Part shown: piece by piece, positions 5,747-46,917 of the stretch | Position numbering within the stretch: position 1 is the stretch's first letter | Layout: the number at the start of each line of letters is the position of its first letter | NCBI RefSeq assembly: GCF_014836675.1 | Contig: NZ_JACSQK010000002.1 | Coordinates: 248,001-312,000, forward strand | DNA: 64,000 bases | Source: Comamonas avium | Lineage (GTDB): Bacteria; Pseudomonadota; Gammaproteobacteria; Burkholderiales; Burkholderiaceae_C | Reading direction: 5' to 3' | Notes under the pieces: generated by a model | The model's input: the letters and a program-made list of their open reading frames with translations, nothing else | What the model was told of the DNA's origin: nothing | Database searches by the model: none | Translations under genes and position numbers: made by a program

Positions 5747-6499
5747 ATGGCCGTTGACTCGCAGGGCGTAGCCCGATCCAGCTTTGATCTTAAAAGTGCA
5801 CAGCTTGCCGTGATGGCCGTGGCATTGCGGGACACCCAAGTCTCGGTGCTGGCAACGGATCTGGCGCAGCGCTTGGCAGACGATCCCGATTTCTTCGACA
5901 ACGACCCTGTGTTGATCGACTTGCAGCATGTGCGTGACAGCACAGATGCCATTGATTTCCCCAAACTGATCAAGCTGCTCAAGCGCCACCGCACGGTGCC
6001 GGTGGCGGTGTGCAATGGTTCGGTCGAGCAAATGGCGGCAGCCCATGCCGCAGGCCTCATGCCCGCTCCAGACGCGCACCCGGTGCGCACCAAGGAAGTG
6101 GTGCGTGAGGTGGAGGTGATCCGTGAGGTAGAAGTGCTGCGCGAAGTGCCAGCCCCCGCGCCCAATGCCATGATTGTGGACAAGCCCCTGCGCTCGGGCC
6201 AGCAGGTCTATGCACGAGGCTGCGATCTGGTCGTGATGGCGGTGGTGAGCTATGGTGCCGAAGTGATTGCTGACGGCAATGTGCACATCTATGCCCCTTT
6301 GCGTGGGCGTGCAGTGGCGGGGGCTCGAGGCAATACAGAGGCCCGTATTTTCAGCACCTGCATGGAGCCGCAACTGCTGTCGATTGCAGGCAATTACCGG
6401 GCGCTGGAAGACGACTTGCCCAAAAACATTGCGGGCAAGCCTGCACAAGCCCGTCTAGAGGGTGAAAAATTGGTGATTGAGCCCATGCGTTTAGCATGA
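5747..6499 (+). CDS. minC: septum-site determining protein MinC
   Basis: Inhibitor of FtsZ ring assembly, recruited to the membrane by MinD so that division happens at mid-cell. Residues 1-105 form the FtsZ-inhibiting N-domain; the C-terminal beta-helix domain (about residues 145-250) contains VYARGCDLVVMAVVSYGAEV and GNVHIYAPLRGRAVAGA, the MinD-binding and dimer region seen in all MinC proteins. The linker (residues 116-135) is a short repeat, three copies of REV(EV) separated by I/L. Length 250 is normal. First gene of minCDE, 66 bases ahead of minD; the ATG has no strong ribosome-binding site. Confidence 0.95.
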   Translation: MAVDSQGVARSSFDLKSAQLAVMAVALRDTQVSVLATDLAQRLADDPDFFDNDPVLIDLQHVRDSTDAIDFPKLIKLLKRHRTVPVAVCNGSVEQMAAAHAAGLMPAPDAHPVRTKEVVREVEVIREVEVLREVPAPAPNAMIVDKPLRSGQQVYARGCDLVVMAVVSYGAEVIADGNVHIYAPLRGRAVAGARGNTEARIFSTCMEPQLLSIAGNYRALEDDLPKNIAGKPAQARLEGEKLVIEPMRLA

Positions 6500-26637: not shown

Positions 26638-27060
26638 TCACGCCAACTCCGCCTGCGCTTCAATGCGCGGGTAAAACTCCAGGTTTTCGCGCTGCATGCG
26701 TTCGTGCAGGCGGCGCAGTACGTTGTTGGCATCGGCCCGAAAACCTTCTGCATCCTCGCGCAGGTGCTGTGCCGTATTCCAGCGGCGCACAAACGCGTCA
26801 TAGGCCTGGGCCAGCGGTGCCATCTCGGCCTGGTACATGCGACCCAGCCGGGCCAGGTCTGCATCGTCGCCGCGCTGCAGCGACGGATACAGCGCCTGAT
26901 CTTCCACGGCCAGATGCAGCTTGATCACGGCGCTCATGCCGACAATGCCTTCGGCAATGGCTTGCGCGTTGTCAGCTACACCGGCATGTGTGAGCGTACG
27001 CAGGGCGGCTACGCGGCGCAGGATGTCGGTGTGCTGGTGCTTGAGTTTGTCGATCTGCAT
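26638..27060 (-). CDS. hemerythrin HHE domain protein
   Basis: A 140-residue four-helix hemerythrin-domain protein, expected to bind a di-iron centre and O2 or NO in the cytoplasm. The metal pattern is visible as H in DKLKHQHTDILRR, HLAVEDQALYP (H, E and D) near residue 55, and LHERMQRENLEFYP near 120. The ATG at 27058-27060 has AAGGAAG upstream. It is the last gene of the nirK-ric-norB operon, 58 bases after the norB stop; its operon place suggests NO sensing, storage or scavenging. Its exact role is not known to me. Confidence 0.85.
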   Translation of the reverse strand: MQIDKLKHQHTDILRRVAALRTLTHAGVADNAQAIAEGIVGMSAVIKLHLAVEDQALYPSLQRGDDADLARLGRMYQAEMAPLAQAYDAFVRRWNTAQHLREDAEGFRADANNVLRRLHERMQRENLEFYPRIEAQAELA

Positions 27061-27118: not shown

Positions 27119-29407
27119 TTATTTGGCTGGAATGACGTTGCTGGAGGCCGGGGTGGTGCGTGCCGGGGCCGAGTGGCCCAGCACACCCTTGACCACCTGC
27201 CATGCCATAGCCAGTGCGCCCACAATGAAGACCACATCACCAAAGGTGCGCACCCAGCGCAGCGTTTCCAGCAGCGGCTGCTGCATGAAAGCTTCGCTGC
27301 GTGCCCACCACAGGCCTTCGCTCACGCTGGCGTGGAACTGCAGGACCCCAATCGGCAGCAAGCTGGTGGCAATCATCAGTACCAGACCACCGTTGAGGCA
27401 CCAGAAAGCGGTTTTCATCAGGCCTTCGCTGAAGGCCATCTGGGGGCGCACATAGCGCAGCACCATCAGGCTAAAGCCCAGCGCCAGGAAACCATACACA
27501 CCGAACAGGGCCGCATGGGCGTGCAGTGGCGTGGTGTTCAGGCCCTGCACGTAGTACAGGGAGATGGGCGGGTTGATCATGAAACCAAAGACGCCTGCGC
27601 CCAGCATGTTCCAGAAGGCCACAGCCACAAAGCACATCAGCGGCCACTTGAGTTGCTGCATCCACGGCGCACGGTCTTTGAGGCGCCAGTTCTCCCAGGC
27701 TTCATGGCCCAGCACGATCAGCGGCACCACTTCCAGCGCACTGAAGGCTGCACCCACGGCCATCACCGGGGTGGTGGTGCCTGCAAAGTACAGGTGGTGG
27801 AAGGTGCCGGGAATGCCCCCCAGCAGGAACAGCGAGGCCGAGGCCAGACTGGCTGTGGTGGCCATGCGGCGCGAGACCAGCCCCATGCTGGAGAACACAA
27901 AGGCCAGGCCAGTGGTGGCAAAGACTTCAAAGAAGCCCTCTACCCACAGGTGCACCACCCACCAGCGCCAGTACTCCATCACGGTCAGGCTGGTGCGCTC
28001 GCCGTAAAACAGCCCCGCACCGTAGAACAGGCCAATGGCACCGCACGAACAGGTCAGCAGGGCCAGCAGGTTTTTGTCTTCGCCATTGCGCGCCAGCAAT
28101 GCGGGCAGCACACCGCGCAGCATCAGCACCAGCCACAGCAGCATGCCCACCCATTTGAGGATCTGCCAGAAACGGCCCAGATCCACGTATTCATAGCCCT
28201 GGTGACCCAGCCAGAAGTTCCACTCTGCGGGCATGACCTGGGCAATCGCCAGGTAGTTGCCGACGAAAGAGCCGACGCAGACAAACACCAGCGCCCAGAA
28301 CAGCACGTCCACGCCCAGTTTCTGGAATTTCGGGTCTTTGCCGCCGTTGATGACGGGGGCCAGAAACAGGCCCAGCGCCAGAAAGCCCGTGGCAATCCAG
28401 AACAGTGCACTTTGAATGTGCCAGGTGCGGGTGAGTGAGTAGGGGAACCATTGCGATACGTCTACGCCATAGAATTCCTGCCCTTCCACGGTGTAGTGCG
28501 CGGTAAAGCCGCCCAGCATCACCTGAAAGACAAACAGCCCGACGACCAGCAGCAAATACTTGGCCAAGGCGCGTTGTGAGGGAGTCAGGGCAAAGCGCGT
28601 CAGCGGGTCTTGCACAGGTGCGGGGACTTCCTCGGTGTCCTGGTGGCGCAGGAATGACCAGCCCCACACCAGAAAGCCCACGCCTGCCAGCAAGATCACC
28701 ACGCTGGCAATCGACCAGACCACGTTCTCGCTGCTGGGCACGTTGCTGATCAGCGGTTCGTGCGGCCAGTTGTTGGTGTAGGTGACTTTGCTGTTGGGGC
28801 GCTCGGTGGCGGCGGCCCATGCTGTCCAGAAGAAGAACTTGGTCATCTGCGCGCGGCGCTCAGCGCTGGGCAGGGTGTTTTCCTTCATGGCAAAGCTCTC
28901 GCGGCTGCCGCGCAGGGCGGGCTCGTCCGAGAACAGTTGCTCGTAGTAGGTGGCAGTTTGTGCCATGGCCCGGGCACGGCGTTCGCTCACGGTCAGTGTG
29001 TCGTTGTCATCGACGCGGTTGTGGCGGTATTCGGCCTGCAGCTGTGCACGCAAAGCGGCTTGCTCGCCCACCCCCAGATCGGCATAGGCCTGTTTGTGGC
29101 GCTCTTGCGCGCCCAGCTCCAGCCACGCGGTCAGTTCGCGGTGCAGCCAGTCGGCAGTCCAGTCAGGGGCCTGGTAGGCACCGTGGCCCCAGATGGAGCC
29201 CAGCTGCATGCCGCCCACCGATTGCCAGGCGGTCTGGCCGTCAAGAATGTCTTCTTCGGTGAACAGCTTTTCGCCCTTTTCGGTGACCACATGGTCAGGG
29301 ATGGGCGGGGCTGCGCGGTAAATGTCGACACCCAGATAGCCCAGCAGCGCGAACATCACGATGCACATGCCAATGAGCGTGAACCAGTGTTTTTTATACG
29401 GACCCAT
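27119..29407 (-). CDS. norB: quinol-dependent nitric oxide reductase (qNOR)
   Basis: Inner-membrane haem-copper-oxidase relative that reduces 2 NO to N2O using quinol. Length 762 and an N-terminal extension (residues about 40-240, periplasmic, cytochrome-c-like fold without haem) fused to a 12-plus-helix NorB core mark the quinol type. The conserved haem b / b3 / non-haem iron histidines sit in TWHIQSALFW, VVHLWVEGFFEVFATT, GTFHHLYFAG and PLHAHAALFGVYG; Glu residues of the HLWVEGFFEVF segment are the known iron-site ligands. The ATG at 29405-29407 has GGGAGA upstream. Starts 22 bases after ric, so the genes are co-transcribed. Confidence 0.95.
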   Translation of the reverse strand: MGPYKKHWFTLIGMCIVMFALLGYLGVDIYRAAPPIPDHVVTEKGEKLFTEEDILDGQTAWQSVGGMQLGSIWGHGAYQAPDWTADWLHRELTAWLELGAQERHKQAYADLGVGEQAALRAQLQAEYRHNRVDDNDTLTVSERRARAMAQTATYYEQLFSDEPALRGSRESFAMKENTLPSAERRAQMTKFFFWTAWAAATERPNSKVTYTNNWPHEPLISNVPSSENVVWSIASVVILLAGVGFLVWGWSFLRHQDTEEVPAPVQDPLTRFALTPSQRALAKYLLLVVGLFVFQVMLGGFTAHYTVEGQEFYGVDVSQWFPYSLTRTWHIQSALFWIATGFLALGLFLAPVINGGKDPKFQKLGVDVLFWALVFVCVGSFVGNYLAIAQVMPAEWNFWLGHQGYEYVDLGRFWQILKWVGMLLWLVLMLRGVLPALLARNGEDKNLLALLTCSCGAIGLFYGAGLFYGERTSLTVMEYWRWWVVHLWVEGFFEVFATTGLAFVFSSMGLVSRRMATTASLASASLFLLGGIPGTFHHLYFAGTTTPVMAVGAAFSALEVVPLIVLGHEAWENWRLKDRAPWMQQLKWPLMCFVAVAFWNMLGAGVFGFMINPPISLYYVQGLNTTPLHAHAALFGVYGFLALGFSLMVLRYVRPQMAFSEGLMKTAFWCLNGGLVLMIATSLLPIGVLQFHASVSEGLWWARSEAFMQQPLLETLRWVRTFGDVVFIVGALAMAWQVVKGVLGHSAPARTTPASSNVIPAK

Positions 29408-29429: not shown

Positions 29430-30107
29430 TTACAGCACCTGCGCGGGCGCAAAGCGCTCGAACAGGATGTTGTTCTCGGTATGAATGTGGGCAATCAGGT
29501 CATCGCGAAAGCTGCGCAACCCGGTGTAGAGCGCGCGCCATGTGGTGCAGGCGTCGCGTGGGGTGGTGATGTTGTCGGTCAGCTCGGCCAGACGGCGCAG
29601 CTCGGTGCCGTGGTCATCGTGCTCAGAGCGCATGGCCGAAATGGGCATGCTGGCCATGCCTCCCTGCCCCCGCGTAATCATGGGAAACAGCACCATCTCT
29701 TCCTTGCGCATGTGGCTGTCCAGCTCTTGCGCCATGGCCTCCAGATGGTCGGCCAGGCCGTGGGGGCAGTCTTGGCGGTCGCCGTGGACATGTTCCACGC
29801 GGCGTGCCAGTCGAATCAGCTCGGGTAGTTGCTCGCGGTGTACAGCGTGATAGCGCACCAGCAGGTGCTCCACCAGTTGCGTGTCGCTGGCATCGCTCCA
29901 GTCTTGCTCAGGCTCTGCGGCGGCGCGCTGCTCCAGATTTTTCAGTGCATCCACCAGGGGGCGGGGATCAATGCCCAGGGTTTCGGTGGCCGTGCGCAGA
30001 CTGCGGTTGCCGGCGCAGCAAAAGTCCAGCTGGTGGGCATCGAACAGACCGGTGGCCCCGGGAATACGGCGGGCGAGCTGCCCCAATGATTGCTCCATGT
30101 AAGGCAT
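29430..30107 (-). CDS. ric: iron-sulfur cluster repair di-iron protein (RIC/ScdA; NorA-type)
   Basis: A 225-residue RIC-family protein. The N-terminal ScdA_N part has RIPGATGLFDAHQLDFCCAGN (residues about 13-33; Cys pair in DFCCAG), and the hemerythrin-like core has LLVRYHAVHREQLPEL, HMRKEEMVLFPMI and SEHDDHG, LIAHIHTENNILFERF for the di-iron ligands. It repairs NO- or oxidant-damaged Fe-S clusters; in Ralstonia eutropha the equivalent NorA is encoded just ahead of qNOR. The ATG at 30105-30107 has AGGAGA upstream. It is the second gene of the nirK operon, 114 bases after nirK, with a hairpin between. Confidence 0.9.
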   Translation of the reverse strand: MPYMEQSLGQLARRIPGATGLFDAHQLDFCCAGNRSLRTATETLGIDPRPLVDALKNLEQRAAAEPEQDWSDASDTQLVEHLLVRYHAVHREQLPELIRLARRVEHVHGDRQDCPHGLADHLEAMAQELDSHMRKEEMVLFPMITRGQGGMASMPISAMRSEHDDHGTELRRLAELTDNITTPRDACTTWRALYTGLRSFRDDLIAHIHTENNILFERFAPAQVL

Positions 30108-30170: not shown

Positions 30171-30199
30171 GCCTTGCCAGAGTAGGTGTCTGGCAAGGC
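30171..30199 (-). promoter_or_regulatory. intercistronic hairpin between nirK and ric
   Basis: Perfect inverted repeat GCCTTGCCAGA / TCTGGCAAGGC (11 base pairs) around GTAGGTG, without a T-run. It lies 22 bases past the nirK stop. It may protect the nirK mRNA end or lower read-through into ric-norB; that is an inference. Confidence 0.55.
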
Positions 30200-30221: not shown

Positions 30222-31661
30222 TTACAGGGCGCTGGGCTTGTAGACGCCAGGGATGCCTTCGCCCGTGACTTCCAGCACGCCGACGGCGCCTTTGCCGGTG
30301 CGCGAGAGTGCATGGTCTACCAGCAGATAGCTGCCGGGGTAGTCCATCTTCAGCTCCACAATGGTGGCGCCGCCGGGGGCAACCACGGTGGTTTGCACGC
30401 TGTGCTTGATGGTGTTGAGTGCGGCTTCGCTGTAGACCTTGTCAAACACTTCGCCAATGATGTGGAACGAGGCAATCTTGTTGGGCCCGCCCACACCGAA
30501 ATAGATGCGCACGGTCTCACCCACCTTGGCCTGCATCTTGTGCGTCTTGCTCAAGGCTCCGACCGCACCGTTGAACACGTAGTAGGTGGGCAGCTCATCG
30601 GACATTCTTTGCAGGTCCACGTCCTGGTGCACCTTGGCACCAATGGGGCGCTGTGTGTACATGTCGCCTTGCATCACATAGAACTCGCGGTCTACCTTGG
30701 GCAGGCCTTGTTCGGGCTCGACCAGAATCATTCCGTACATGCCTGCAGCAATGTGCTGTGGCACCAGCGGTGTAGCGCAGTGGTACACAAACAGGCCTGC
30801 GTGCATGGCCTTGAAGGTGATGGTTTTTTCTTGGCCGGGTGCAACCTGGGTGTGCTCGCCCCCTCCGTGCCCGCCTGTTACGGCATGCAGGTCGATGGAG
30901 TGGATGGCCTTGCTGTCCTTGGCATTGGCCAGTGTCAGCTCAATGGTGTCGCCCACCCGCGCACGCAGCATGGGGCCGGGGACCTGGCGGTTGAAGGTCC
31001 AGTAAGTAAAACTGGTGTCGTCATCCAGCTTGCCGGACAGCTCCACCGTCTCCAGGCGCACCTTCTGTACTTGCGGGGCATGCGCCGCAATGGGAGGTGG
31101 CAACTGGGTGGGGCTGGCCGAGATATCAACCGCCGTGGGGTCTGCGCCCTTTTGCGGCACGGTGATGGGTGTGTACAGCGCTAAAGCCGCATCGCTGGAG
31201 GTGCTGCTGGCAGATTTGGCTGGCTGTGATTTGCCCGTGACCTGAATGGTGCCAAACATGCCGACCTGGCGGTGCCCGGGGATGGAGCAGTAGTACTGAA
31301 ACTCACCCGCCTGCGAGGCCGTGAAACGTACGCGCTGTGTGCCCTTGCCGCTGAACTTGGGCGATGCCACGCCCAGCTCGTCAATGCGCAAATCATGCTC
31401 GGCACCTTCTCCGCTGGCCAGCTCGATTTCGACGGTGTCACCCACTGCCACGGTCAGCGTGGGGTTGGCAACGCCTTTGTCATCCACGTAGACCATCTTG
31501 CCGTCCACCACATTGGTGTGCAGCACAAAGCGCTTGACGCTTTGCTGGGCGCTGGCGGAGGTGCCCGCCTTTTGGGGGGCTGCTTGCAGGGTGGGGGCAA
31601 TACCAGACAGGGTCAGCGCGCAGATGGCTAGAGAGAGGGTGCGCAATGTGGGCTGTTTCAT
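30222..31661 (-). CDS. nirK: copper nitrite reductase with N-terminal cupredoxin domain
   Basis: Periplasmic NirK reducing nitrite to NO. Signal peptide residues 1-27. Residues about 45-142 form an extra cupredoxin domain with an intact type-1 copper set: His89, Cys125, His130, Met135 (EHDL; YYCSIPGHRQVGM). The NirK core (about 180-479) has type-1 ligands His254, Cys295, His303, Met308; type-2 ligands His259, His294, His450; and catalytic Asp257 and His400 (ASFHIIGEVFDKVY). The short CATPLVPQHIAAGM loop and VEPEQGLPKVDREFYVMQGD are class II (AniA-like). An N-terminal cupredoxin extension is known from Hyphomicrobium NirK. First gene of the operon ending with hemerythrin, preceded by sigma-54 and NorR-type sites. 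Confidence 0.95.
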   Translation of the reverse strand: MKQPTLRTLSLAICALTLSGIAPTLQAAPQKAGTSASAQQSVKRFVLHTNVVDGKMVYVDDKGVANPTLTVAVGDTVEIELASGEGAEHDLRIDELGVASPKFSGKGTQRVRFTASQAGEFQYYCSIPGHRQVGMFGTIQVTGKSQPAKSASSTSSDAALALYTPITVPQKGADPTAVDISASPTQLPPPIAAHAPQVQKVRLETVELSGKLDDDTSFTYWTFNRQVPGPMLRARVGDTIELTLANAKDSKAIHSIDLHAVTGGHGGGEHTQVAPGQEKTITFKAMHAGLFVYHCATPLVPQHIAAGMYGMILVEPEQGLPKVDREFYVMQGDMYTQRPIGAKVHQDVDLQRMSDELPTYYVFNGAVGALSKTHKMQAKVGETVRIYFGVGGPNKIASFHIIGEVFDKVYSEAALNTIKHSVQTTVVAPGGATIVELKMDYPGSYLLVDHALSRTGKGAVGVLEVTGEGIPGVYKPSAL

Positions 31662-31711
31662 GGTTGTGGGCTCCAGTGAGTGAGGGCGGGTTTGCCGTCA
31701 CTTCTCACTAC

Positions 31712-31726
31712 GCACAGAACAGGCCA
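31712..31726 (-). promoter_or_regulatory. candidate sigma-54 promoter of nirK-ric-norB
   Basis: Minus-strand TGGCCT-N5-GTGC has the invariant GG and GC spaced by ten bases, as in the -24/-12 class. Predicted transcription start about 31700, some 40 bases ahead of the nirK ATG; the three NorR-type sites then lie about 66-123 bases upstream, the usual activator distance. Pattern match, not tested. Confidence 0.55.
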
Positions 31727-31751
31727 GAAAAAATCAAAATAAAAACAAGTG

Positions 31752-31765
31752 TTTACCCAGATCAA
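31752..31765. promoter_or_regulatory. FNR-like box in the nirK/norR region
   Basis: TTTAC-CCAG-ATCAA matches the right half of the TTGAT-N4-ATCAA consensus fully and the left half partly. Possible FNR/DNR-type input; weak. Confidence 0.3.
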
Positions 31766-31778
31766 GGTCATAACTACC
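31766..31778. promoter_or_regulatory. NorR-type binding site 1
   Basis: GGT-CATAACT-ACC fits the GGT-N7-ACC consensus described for R. eutropha NorR. First of three in the nirK-norR divergent region. Confidence 0.65.
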
Positions 31779-31790
31779 CGATCCAGTTAG

Positions 31791-31803
31791 GGTGAAAACA
31801 ACC
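31791..31803. promoter_or_regulatory. NorR-type binding site 2
   Basis: GGT-GAAAACA-ACC, second GGT-N7-ACC site; centre 25 bases from site 1. Confidence 0.65.
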
Positions 31804-31810
31804 TTAGAAA

Positions 31811-31823
31811 GGTGATTTTCACC
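31811..31823. promoter_or_regulatory. NorR-type binding site 3
   Basis: GGT-GATTTTC-ACC, third GGT-N7-ACC site; centre 20 bases from site 2. It ends one base before the norR ATG and includes part of its ribosome-binding site, which suggests autorepression. Confidence 0.65.
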
Positions 31824-33365
31824 ATGAACCCCTTGCACGCGTTATTGCTGACCGACCTTGCCATGGAGCTGCCCATGGCCGTACGTCTGCAGCGTTTGGT
31901 AGAGCTGTTGCGCATGCAGTTTGGCTGCGGTGCTGTGGCACTTTTGAGTCTGGACAGTGAGACCAGCAGCCTGCGGCCTGTGGCGGTGGACGGCTTGTCC
32001 AGCGATGCCGTCGGGCGGCGTTTTCCGATTGCAGAGCACCCCCGTCTGGCCACCTTGCTCCAGCGGGCTGGCGAGGTGGTGCGCTTTCCGCATGACAGCA
32101 AGCTGCCTGACCCCTACGACGGTCTGGTGATCGAGCAACCGGGCCAGCCACTGGATGTGCATGACTGCATGGGCGTAGCGCTGGAGGTGGAGGGCCAGTG
32201 CTGGGGCGTACTGACGCTGGACGCGCTGACGGTGGGCACCTTTGAGGGCAAGGCCATCCGAGAGCTGGAGCAGCTGGTGCTGGTGATTGAAGCAGCCGTG
32301 CGCGTGACGCGCCTGGAGACCGCGCTGCGCGGTGTGCGCCAATCGGCAGGGGCGGTAGAGGAAGGCATAGCCTCGCGCCCCGAGGGTGAAATCATCGGGC
32401 AAAGCAAGCCCTTGCTGCACTTGCTGCAAGAGCTGCAAGTGGTGGCCGACACCGAATTGCCCGTGCTGCTGCTGGGCGAAACCGGTGTGGGCAAGGAGCT
32501 GTTTGCACGGCGGCTGCACCAGATGTCGCGCCGCAGCGGCAAACCGCTGGTGCACGTCAACTGCGCGGCGTTGCCTGAGGCCCTGGCTGAAAGCGAATTG
32601 TTTGGCCATGTGCGTGGTGCTTTTTCAGGAGCCATTGCCGAGCGCGCAGGTCGCTTTGAGGCCGCAGAAGGCGGCACGCTGTTTCTGGATGAGGTGGGCG
32701 AGCTGCCCCTGTCCATTCAGGCCAAGCTGCTGCGGGCCTTGCAAAACGGAGAGATTCAGCGGCTGGGCGCAGACCGCCCGCGCAAGGTGAATGTGCGCAT
32801 CATTGCGGCCACCAACCGCAACCTGAAAGAGCGCGTGCAGGAAGGCAGTTTCCGTGCAGATCTGTACCACCGTCTTTCGGTCTACCCCGTGCCGATTCCG
32901 CCACTGCGTGAGCGTGGCAACGATGTGCTGCTGCTGGCCGGATTCTTTCTGGAACTCAACCGTGCGCGTCTGGGCTTGCGCAGCTTGCGCCTGTCGGTGG
33001 CGGCAGAAGATGCGCTGCACCGCTATGCATGGCCGGGCAATGTGCGCGAGTTGGAGCACGTGGTCAGCCGTGCAGCACTCAAAGCACTGAGCCATGGTGC
33101 ACAGCGCAGTGACATTGTGACGCTGGAGGCAGACTGGCTGGGGCTGGATGTTCAGCCATTACCAATGGCCGCCACGGTGTTGCACGCGCCCATGCTGGCC
33201 CCCGCCCCTTCCATGCGCGCCGTGGTGGACAGCGCGCAGCGCGAGGCCATTCGCTGGGCGCTGGATGCCCACCGGGGGCAGTGGGCACAGGCGGCCCGTT
33301 CTCTGGATGTAGACCCCAGCAATCTGCACAAGCTGGCCAAACGGCTGGGGCTCAAGACTGCCTAG
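31824..33365 (+). CDS. norR: nitric oxide-responsive sigma-54 activator NorR
   Basis: Transcription activator of 513 residues. An N-terminal GAF domain (about 15-160) senses NO through iron in known NorR proteins; the AAA+ domain (about 190-420) carries Walker A GETGVGKE (218-225), the sigma-54 contact loop GAFSGA (265-270), Walker B TLFLDEVGE (about 285-293) and YAWPGNVRELEHV; the Fis-type HTH (about 465-513) ends SLDVDPSNLHKLAKRLGL. The loop has Ser where GAFTGA is standard. The ATG at 31824 follows AGAAAGG; a GTG four codons earlier is possible. Divergent from nirK. NO should relieve GAF repression and activate the sigma-54 promoter. Confidence 0.93.
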   Translation: MNPLHALLLTDLAMELPMAVRLQRLVELLRMQFGCGAVALLSLDSETSSLRPVAVDGLSSDAVGRRFPIAEHPRLATLLQRAGEVVRFPHDSKLPDPYDGLVIEQPGQPLDVHDCMGVALEVEGQCWGVLTLDALTVGTFEGKAIRELEQLVLVIEAAVRVTRLETALRGVRQSAGAVEEGIASRPEGEIIGQSKPLLHLLQELQVVADTELPVLLLGETGVGKELFARRLHQMSRRSGKPLVHVNCAALPEALAESELFGHVRGAFSGAIAERAGRFEAAEGGTLFLDEVGELPLSIQAKLLRALQNGEIQRLGADRPRKVNVRIIAATNRNLKERVQEGSFRADLYHRLSVYPVPIPPLRERGNDVLLLAGFFLELNRARLGLRSLRLSVAAEDALHRYAWPGNVRELEHVVSRAALKALSHGAQRSDIVTLEADWLGLDVQPLPMAATVLHAPMLAPAPSMRAVVDSAQREAIRWALDAHRGQWAQAARSLDVDPSNLHKLAKRLGLKTA

Positions 33366-46842: not shown

Positions 46843-46917
46843 GGCGCGCAACTTATCAGAAAAACTGAAAGAACCTAACTTTTATCATCCATTTTCTATA
46901 CATAAACTGTCGGGCTT

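Follow-up and report, generated by a model that had tools for sequence, protein, structure and literature searches.

Genes at the nirK-norR locus

The window, i.e. the whole 64,000-nucleotide stretch of Comamonas avium DNA analysed here, contains four co-directional genes that read away from an array of inverted repeats in the order nirK, norA, norB and a hemerythrin-domain gene, with norR divergent from nirK on the other side of the array. The features are listed below; the start of norA was picked by eye and that of norB was picked from its PDB match.

26638..27060, minus strand: hemerythrin-domain protein (PF01814), the final gene considered in the co-directional run
27119..29407, minus strand: norB, quinol-type nitric oxide reductase (PF22085 and PF00115; PDB nitric oxide reductase subunit B, 1344 bits)
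29430..30107, minus strand: norA, RIC/YtfE/DnrN, di-iron NO-binding or Fe-S repair protein (NF008221, 311.5 bits)
30171..30199, minus strand: perfect 11-bp hairpin with no U-tract, between nirK and norA (folding z -2.45)
30222..31661, minus strand: nirK, copper nitrite reductase with N-terminal cupredoxin domain (TIGR02376, 336.7 bits, cut-off 296.3; PF00127, N-terminal)
31712..31726, minus strand: sigma-54 -24/-12 promoter TGGCCTGTTCTGTGC, GG-N10-GC (pattern match and position)
31743..31755, plus strand: IHF-like site AAACAAGTGTTTA, 8/9 consensus positions, between the NorR sites and the promoter
31752..31765, no strand assigned: degenerate FNR/DNR-like box TTTACCCAGATCAA, TTTAC-N4-ATCAA, two mismatches to TTGAT-N4-ATCAA, between the sites and the promoter
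31766..31778, no strand assigned: NorR site 1 GGTCATAACTACC, nearest to the promoter, centre at about -72, GGT-N7-ACC match
31791..31803, no strand assigned: NorR site 2 GGTGAAAACAACC, centre at about -97, GGT-N7-ACC match
31811..31823, no strand assigned: NorR site 3 GGTGATTTTCACC, centre at about -117, GGT-N7-ACC match
31824..33365, plus strand: norR, NO-responsive sigma-54 activator (NCBIfam NF003451, 699 bits, cut-off 476)

The first-pass annotation had described NorR as encoded directly beside the sites and nirK as the first gene facing them, whereas the R. eutropha targets are norAB. Both statements held, the former through the NCBIfam match listed above and the latter through the gene order. 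Since norA and norB follow behind nirK, the run looks like a norAB-type operon into which nirK has been inserted as the first gene. NirK is of the three-domain form, and its best PDB match is 6tfd_A, followed by 2dv6_A, both Hyphomicrobium enzymes. An NO dismutase was also considered for norB, a reading rejected because some 750 residues of the protein align with NO reductase chains of known structure at up to 1344 bits.

Alignment of the window NorR with E. coli K-12 NorR showed that all five iron ligands of the NO-sensing GAF domain are conserved (R75, D96, D99, C113 and D131; ligands as listed in excerpts of PMC4601167). The protein is 91% identical to its counterpart in Comamonas sp. NTP6 and 85% to that of C. 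aquatica, and it carries the motif GAFSGA, as in C. necator, instead of GAFTGA. By these identities the organism is a Comamonas close to C. aquatica. The genome also encodes rpoN, so that a NorR with GAF iron ligands and its sigma factor are both present. NapA was found in the same genome, and the search for NarG and NosZ gave no match above the cut-off; the predicted gene set is therefore a nitrate-to-N2O one, in which N2O would be the end product.

NorR sites and sigma-54 promoter upstream of nirK

Between nirK and norR lie three tandem inverted repeats with a GT-N7-AC core, upstream of a GG-N10-GC element at the usual distance. The three perfect GGT-N7-ACC sites (starting at 31766, 31791 and 31811) and the minus-strand sigma-54 element at 31726-31712 proposed previously were all found at the correct coordinates. 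If the C in the -12 element is numbered -12, the predicted transcription start falls at about 31700, which is 39 bases ahead of the nirK ATG and agrees with the earlier statement that the sites span -66 to -123. The promoter lies 40 bases from the proximal site, a distance usual for NorR loci, so that the sites are, as had been claimed, in the proper place for a sigma-54 activator. The norR start codon (31824) follows site 3 immediately, and the left half of that site overlaps with the likely ribosome-binding site of norR.

The elements differ in how much they tell individually. A single GGT-N7-ACC site is weak evidence and common by chance: 18 were seen in the window as compared to 12.0 expected, and at least 18 occurred in 6 of 100 shuffles. 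The spaced triple, on the other hand, was found at one place in the 3.93-Mb genome with 0 control matches (the pattern is palindromic, hence both strands were covered), and this whole-genome search returned no other triple array, at norA or anywhere else. Sigma-54-like 15-mers with at most one mismatch numbered 74 in the window vs. 69 expected (4 of them exact), and because the count is close to expectation, it is the position of the element, and not the 15-mer by itself, that counts as evidence. One point against control by NorR and sigma-54 is that the -12 element is GTGC, which is weaker than TTGC. A genome search for additional NorR targets that required a single site together with a promoter was dropped, as it gave 79 matches vs. 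40 in the backward control; since that combination is unspecific, the genome-wide target search relied on the triple only.

NorR loci elsewhere and a second NorR circuit

Named NorR loci were used as a yardstick. All 80 loci kept are the best 80 of 166 and lean to close relatives. Of these best 80 loci, 69 carry three or more perfect sites in the 240 bases preceding norR (L103, among the 69, needs a distant site to reach three); 8 carry two, a single locus carries one and 2 carry none. In 16,000 mononucleotide shuffles of the same regions, three sites never occurred and two or more occurred in 26. A TGG[C/T]-N8-[G/T]GC element was found 25-65 bases from the promoter-proximal site in 56 of the best 80, the distance being 39-42 bases in 46 of the 56 scored loci; the strict element was absent in the other 24. 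The same sites, spacing and promoter were found across beta- and gammaproteobacteria. Because the triple is unique in the genome, recurs in 69 of the 80 named loci and matches that of C. necator, the array is of the NorR kind and is, as far as its sequence goes, a standard NorR enhancer. Moreover, the arrangement GGT-N7-ACC-ATG occurs near norR in 41 of the best 80 named loci, and an ATG falls within the site in 4, which suggests autorepression.

The genome of the window contains a second NorR, divergent from hmp (L111, G000:C11:291000-301500, positions 5928-6040), with three sites of the GTC-N5-GAC form, GTCATTTTGAC, GTCAAATTGAC and GTCAAAAAGAC, and a consensus sigma-54 promoter, TGGCATGTACTTTGC. 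At 25 hmp-type loci of the genus (hmp itself was confirmed at L111 only, the others being assigned by NorR similarity), 69 of 89 GT-N7-AC sites are GTC-N5-GAC and 1 is GGT-N7-ACC, as compared to 1 GTC-N5-GAC among the 33 sites of 11 nirK-linked arrays. The predicted DNA-reading helix also differs between the two NorR types (SNLHKL vs. SNLLRL).

Occurrence and history of the nirK-norR linkage

In the genus, NirK was found in 8 of 53 Comamonas genomes, and in 7 of the 8 nirK faces the array and norR (G000, the source genome, and G028, G032, G033, G460, G465 and G466; counts are from the genus NirK search, in which G028 is L032, and G465 and G460 are probably the same genomes as L031 and L033, respectively). 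In the eighth (G004, locus L112), it is norA that faces the array; nirK comes after norR on the same strand as norR, and the 400 bases upstream of nirK contain neither array nor FNR box. In the family, NirK occurs in 32 of 399 genomes with 33 matches, and among the 30 loci listed norR stands beside nirK in 5 (that of the window, G288, G193, G435 and G400), each of which carries the array. The remaining 25 listed loci contain no norR in the 1.5-kb flank, although some flanks end at a contig edge; this and the position of nirK in G004 are points against NorR control of nirK.

The order nirK-norA-norB is common to 11 genomes, four of them from other genera of the family. In their promoters 33 of 33 sites are perfect, a figure that restates the selection since the triple pattern was itself used to extract the loci; when 10 of the 11 were aligned without the triple filter, 30 of 30 sites were perfect, and sites 1 and 2 of the window were among those kept in the alignment. 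GG-N10-GC was seen by eye at the aligned place in all 11, ending in TGC in 7 and in CGC in 4. All 11 have their best match to the IHF consensus at one common offset, scoring at least 8/9 in nine of them, with single-sequence shuffle frequencies of 0.1-8.9%, and 6-7/9 in the other two. Since the promoters are related, the conserved offset of this candidate site is suggestive only.

The array itself was found in 51 of the 399 family genomes, and NorR adjoins it at 26 of the 30 array loci listed. The first gene facing NorR at those 26 is norB in 12, norA in 7, nirK in 3, a hemerythrin gene in 2 and unassigned in 2, as assigned with window proteins only. The same array thus stands before differing first genes: the switch is conserved while its first gene changes. 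The hemerythrin-first loci, L218 and L219, are in two genomes of the family.

A tree was built from 94 of 112 extracted NorR proteins (the 18 omitted were all Comamonas hmp-type rows; fragments and duplicates, 15 locus ids, had been skipped before the 112). Its nine nirK-linked rows grouped together except for one nested row, HdN1, and constraining the nine together gave a better likelihood that was not rejected (p-AU 0.715). These NorR sequences are compatible with a single insertion of nirK and one NorR origin, which they do not prove. Near relatives without nirK, such as Achromobacter L034-L037, have norA facing the array. In another Comamonas with array and norA (G408, L206), a 37-residue match to the NirK N terminus (59%, E 2e-9) lies between the two, together with a short stretch that, judged by eye, resembles the end of nirK. 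G408 probably once had nirK, most of which would have been deleted while the array and norA stayed.

Alternative readings of the nirK promoter

We estimate a probability of about 80% that the nirK-norR gap contains a NorR/sigma-54 enhancer-promoter of the norAB type with nirK as its first gene. It appears unlikely that nirK is instead led by an activator of the FNR/DNR type at a sigma-70 promoter, with the array working for norR and, to a minor extent, for the operon. The genome does encode FNR (NF008365, 241 bits, cut-off 228) and a weakly DNR-like protein (P0005), and the box at 31752-31765 is kept as TTTAC-N4-ATCAA in 5 of the 11 nirK-linked promoters. However, this form is absent from the other 6, and the box, the closest in the gap to TTGAT-N4-ATCAA, has two mismatches, one of them at the G of TTGAT, when boxes with at most two mismatches number 23 in the window vs. 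13.7 expected. In addition, a simple consensus scan gave no sigma-70 promoter in 31600-31900. Among the five closest of the 25 listed loci where nirK lacks norR, TTGAC-N4-ATCAA boxes precede nirK in two (G132 and G330), whereas in the 400 bases read at the other three neither FNR box nor array was seen; in G132 (L216, L122) the NorR array faces norB, and nirK lies elsewhere behind the FNR-type box. At the hmp gene of P. stutzeri, according to excerpts of PMC1274295, a site for DNR stands together with NorR sites and a sigma-54 promoter. Co-control of the window nirK by FNR is possible. For NsrR, the motif ATGYAT-N5-ATRCAT was absent at up to three mismatches between 31661 and 31824.

At 46887-46903 of the window, ATCCATTTTCTATACAT is an NsrR-like palindrome that differs from the NsrR pattern at one position.

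Equally improbable, in our judgement, is that nirK is uncoupled from norAB, with the hairpin at 30171-30199 ending or processing the message before norA, which would then have another promoter. Besides this perfect 11-bp stem, hairpins of differing sequence occur in the same gap of relatives (G028, z -2.73; G288, z -2.51; G460, z -1.59; for long-gap relatives z is folding against the shuffle mean). On the other side, the stem is not followed by a U-tract (the terminator scan itself spanned 31600-31900), G465 has no excess folding in the gap (z 1.00), and five short-gap relatives lack a strong hairpin, z being computed for G032 and G466 only. Furthermore, the genome has no other triple array and norA none of its own, so that if NorR drives norAB by means of an array of this type, it would do so through nirK. 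The hairpin may nevertheless reduce read-through and may adjust norAB levels relative to nirK, and a partial decoupling at this point is possible.

Finally, the reading of the sites as chance occurrences or merely part of the norR ribosome-binding region is strongly disfavoured, since the triple is unique in the genome, recurs as at least three sites at 69 of the best 80 of 166 named loci and matches C. necator, even if single sites are common and site 3, in its left half, overlaps the likely ribosome-binding site of norR.

Proposed circuit and its significance

Transcription of nirK together with the NO-removal genes by NO-activated NorR and sigma-54 is most likely, and it would form an NO-gated positive feedback with built-in clearance. 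From the sites, the promoter element, the gene order, the identity and ligands of NorR, rpoN, the conservation and the shared arrangement, all of them read from the DNA, we infer a scheme in which NorR binding, NO induction, a single transcript, IHF bending, autorepression and feedback would act together. NorR would occupy the three sites and, without NO, its GAF domain would keep the AAA+ domain off. Binding of NO to the GAF iron would release the ATPase, and a DNA bend, probably via IHF, would carry NorR to the sigma-54 polymerase at 31726-31712. Transcription would begin at about 31700 and run into nirK-norA-norB-hemerythrin. NirK would convert nitrite to NO, which would feed back positively via NorR, NorB would convert NO to N2O, and NorA and the hemerythrin-domain protein would probably buffer NO. 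Site 3, abutting the norR start, would probably let NorR limit its own synthesis. Production and removal of NO would thus probably be switched on jointly by NO itself.

NorR is a detoxification regulator, and nirK is usually under FNR/DNR, NnrR or NsrR control. The promoter is of a known kind; what is unusual is its first gene, an NO-producing one, and NorR control of nirK is predicted from the locus. If NorR gates nirK, these bacteria would produce much NO only where NO is present already, the clearance genes lying in the same run; an NO positive-feedback circuit would be testable in one operon, and the arrangement would bear on when partial denitrifiers emit N2O. We propose tentatively, as a broader possibility that is more doubtful than the promoter assignment, that in a group of Comamonadaceae an NO detoxification switch captured nirK, with NorR as the main gate. 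The operon would then be NO-autocatalytic and possibly bistable, and outside NO would trigger nitrite respiration to N2O with matched removal.

Comparison with known systems

In the literature searched, including excerpts of PMC1274295, PMC4601167, PMC9045102, PMC11526790 and PMC8139620, we found no clear report of a NorR-controlled nirK. The norR-norAB locus on pHG1 of C. necator (R. eutropha) H16, for which NorR control of norAB is published (PMC1274295, in excerpts), resembles the window in its divergent norR, its GG-N10-GC promoter, norA followed by norB, and three GGT-N7-ACC sites, the third abutting the ATG (GGTCATATTTACC, GGTATATTTGACC and GGTATTTATCACC-ATG in the norA-norR gap); its NorR is 67% identical to that of the window. 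Unlike in the window, the first gene is norA, and no nirK is annotated within the 11.5-kb stretch examined.

The norR-norVW locus of E. coli K-12 also has three NorR sites, a sigma-54 promoter and a divergent norR, and IHF bending is drawn in PMC4601167 (figure legend). Its sites, however, are GTC-N5-GAC and its targets are the flavorubredoxin genes. The DNR/FNR- or NsrR-controlled nirK genes of other proteobacteria share with the window an NO- or nitrite-linked control (excerpts of PMC1274295), but differ from it in regulator families and sites. The same excerpts describe nir, nor and nos as jointly regulated by NorR and DNR in three Ralstonia species, which leaves room for nirK as a NorR target.

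A further comparison, within the same genome, is the NorR-hmp module, which likewise combines a NorR, three sites and a promoter, but whose NorR is 47-49% identical to that of the window, whose sites are GTC-N5-GAC and whose target is a flavohaemoglobin. Two NorRs with different operators in one genome are a natural test of how NorR circuits are kept apart.
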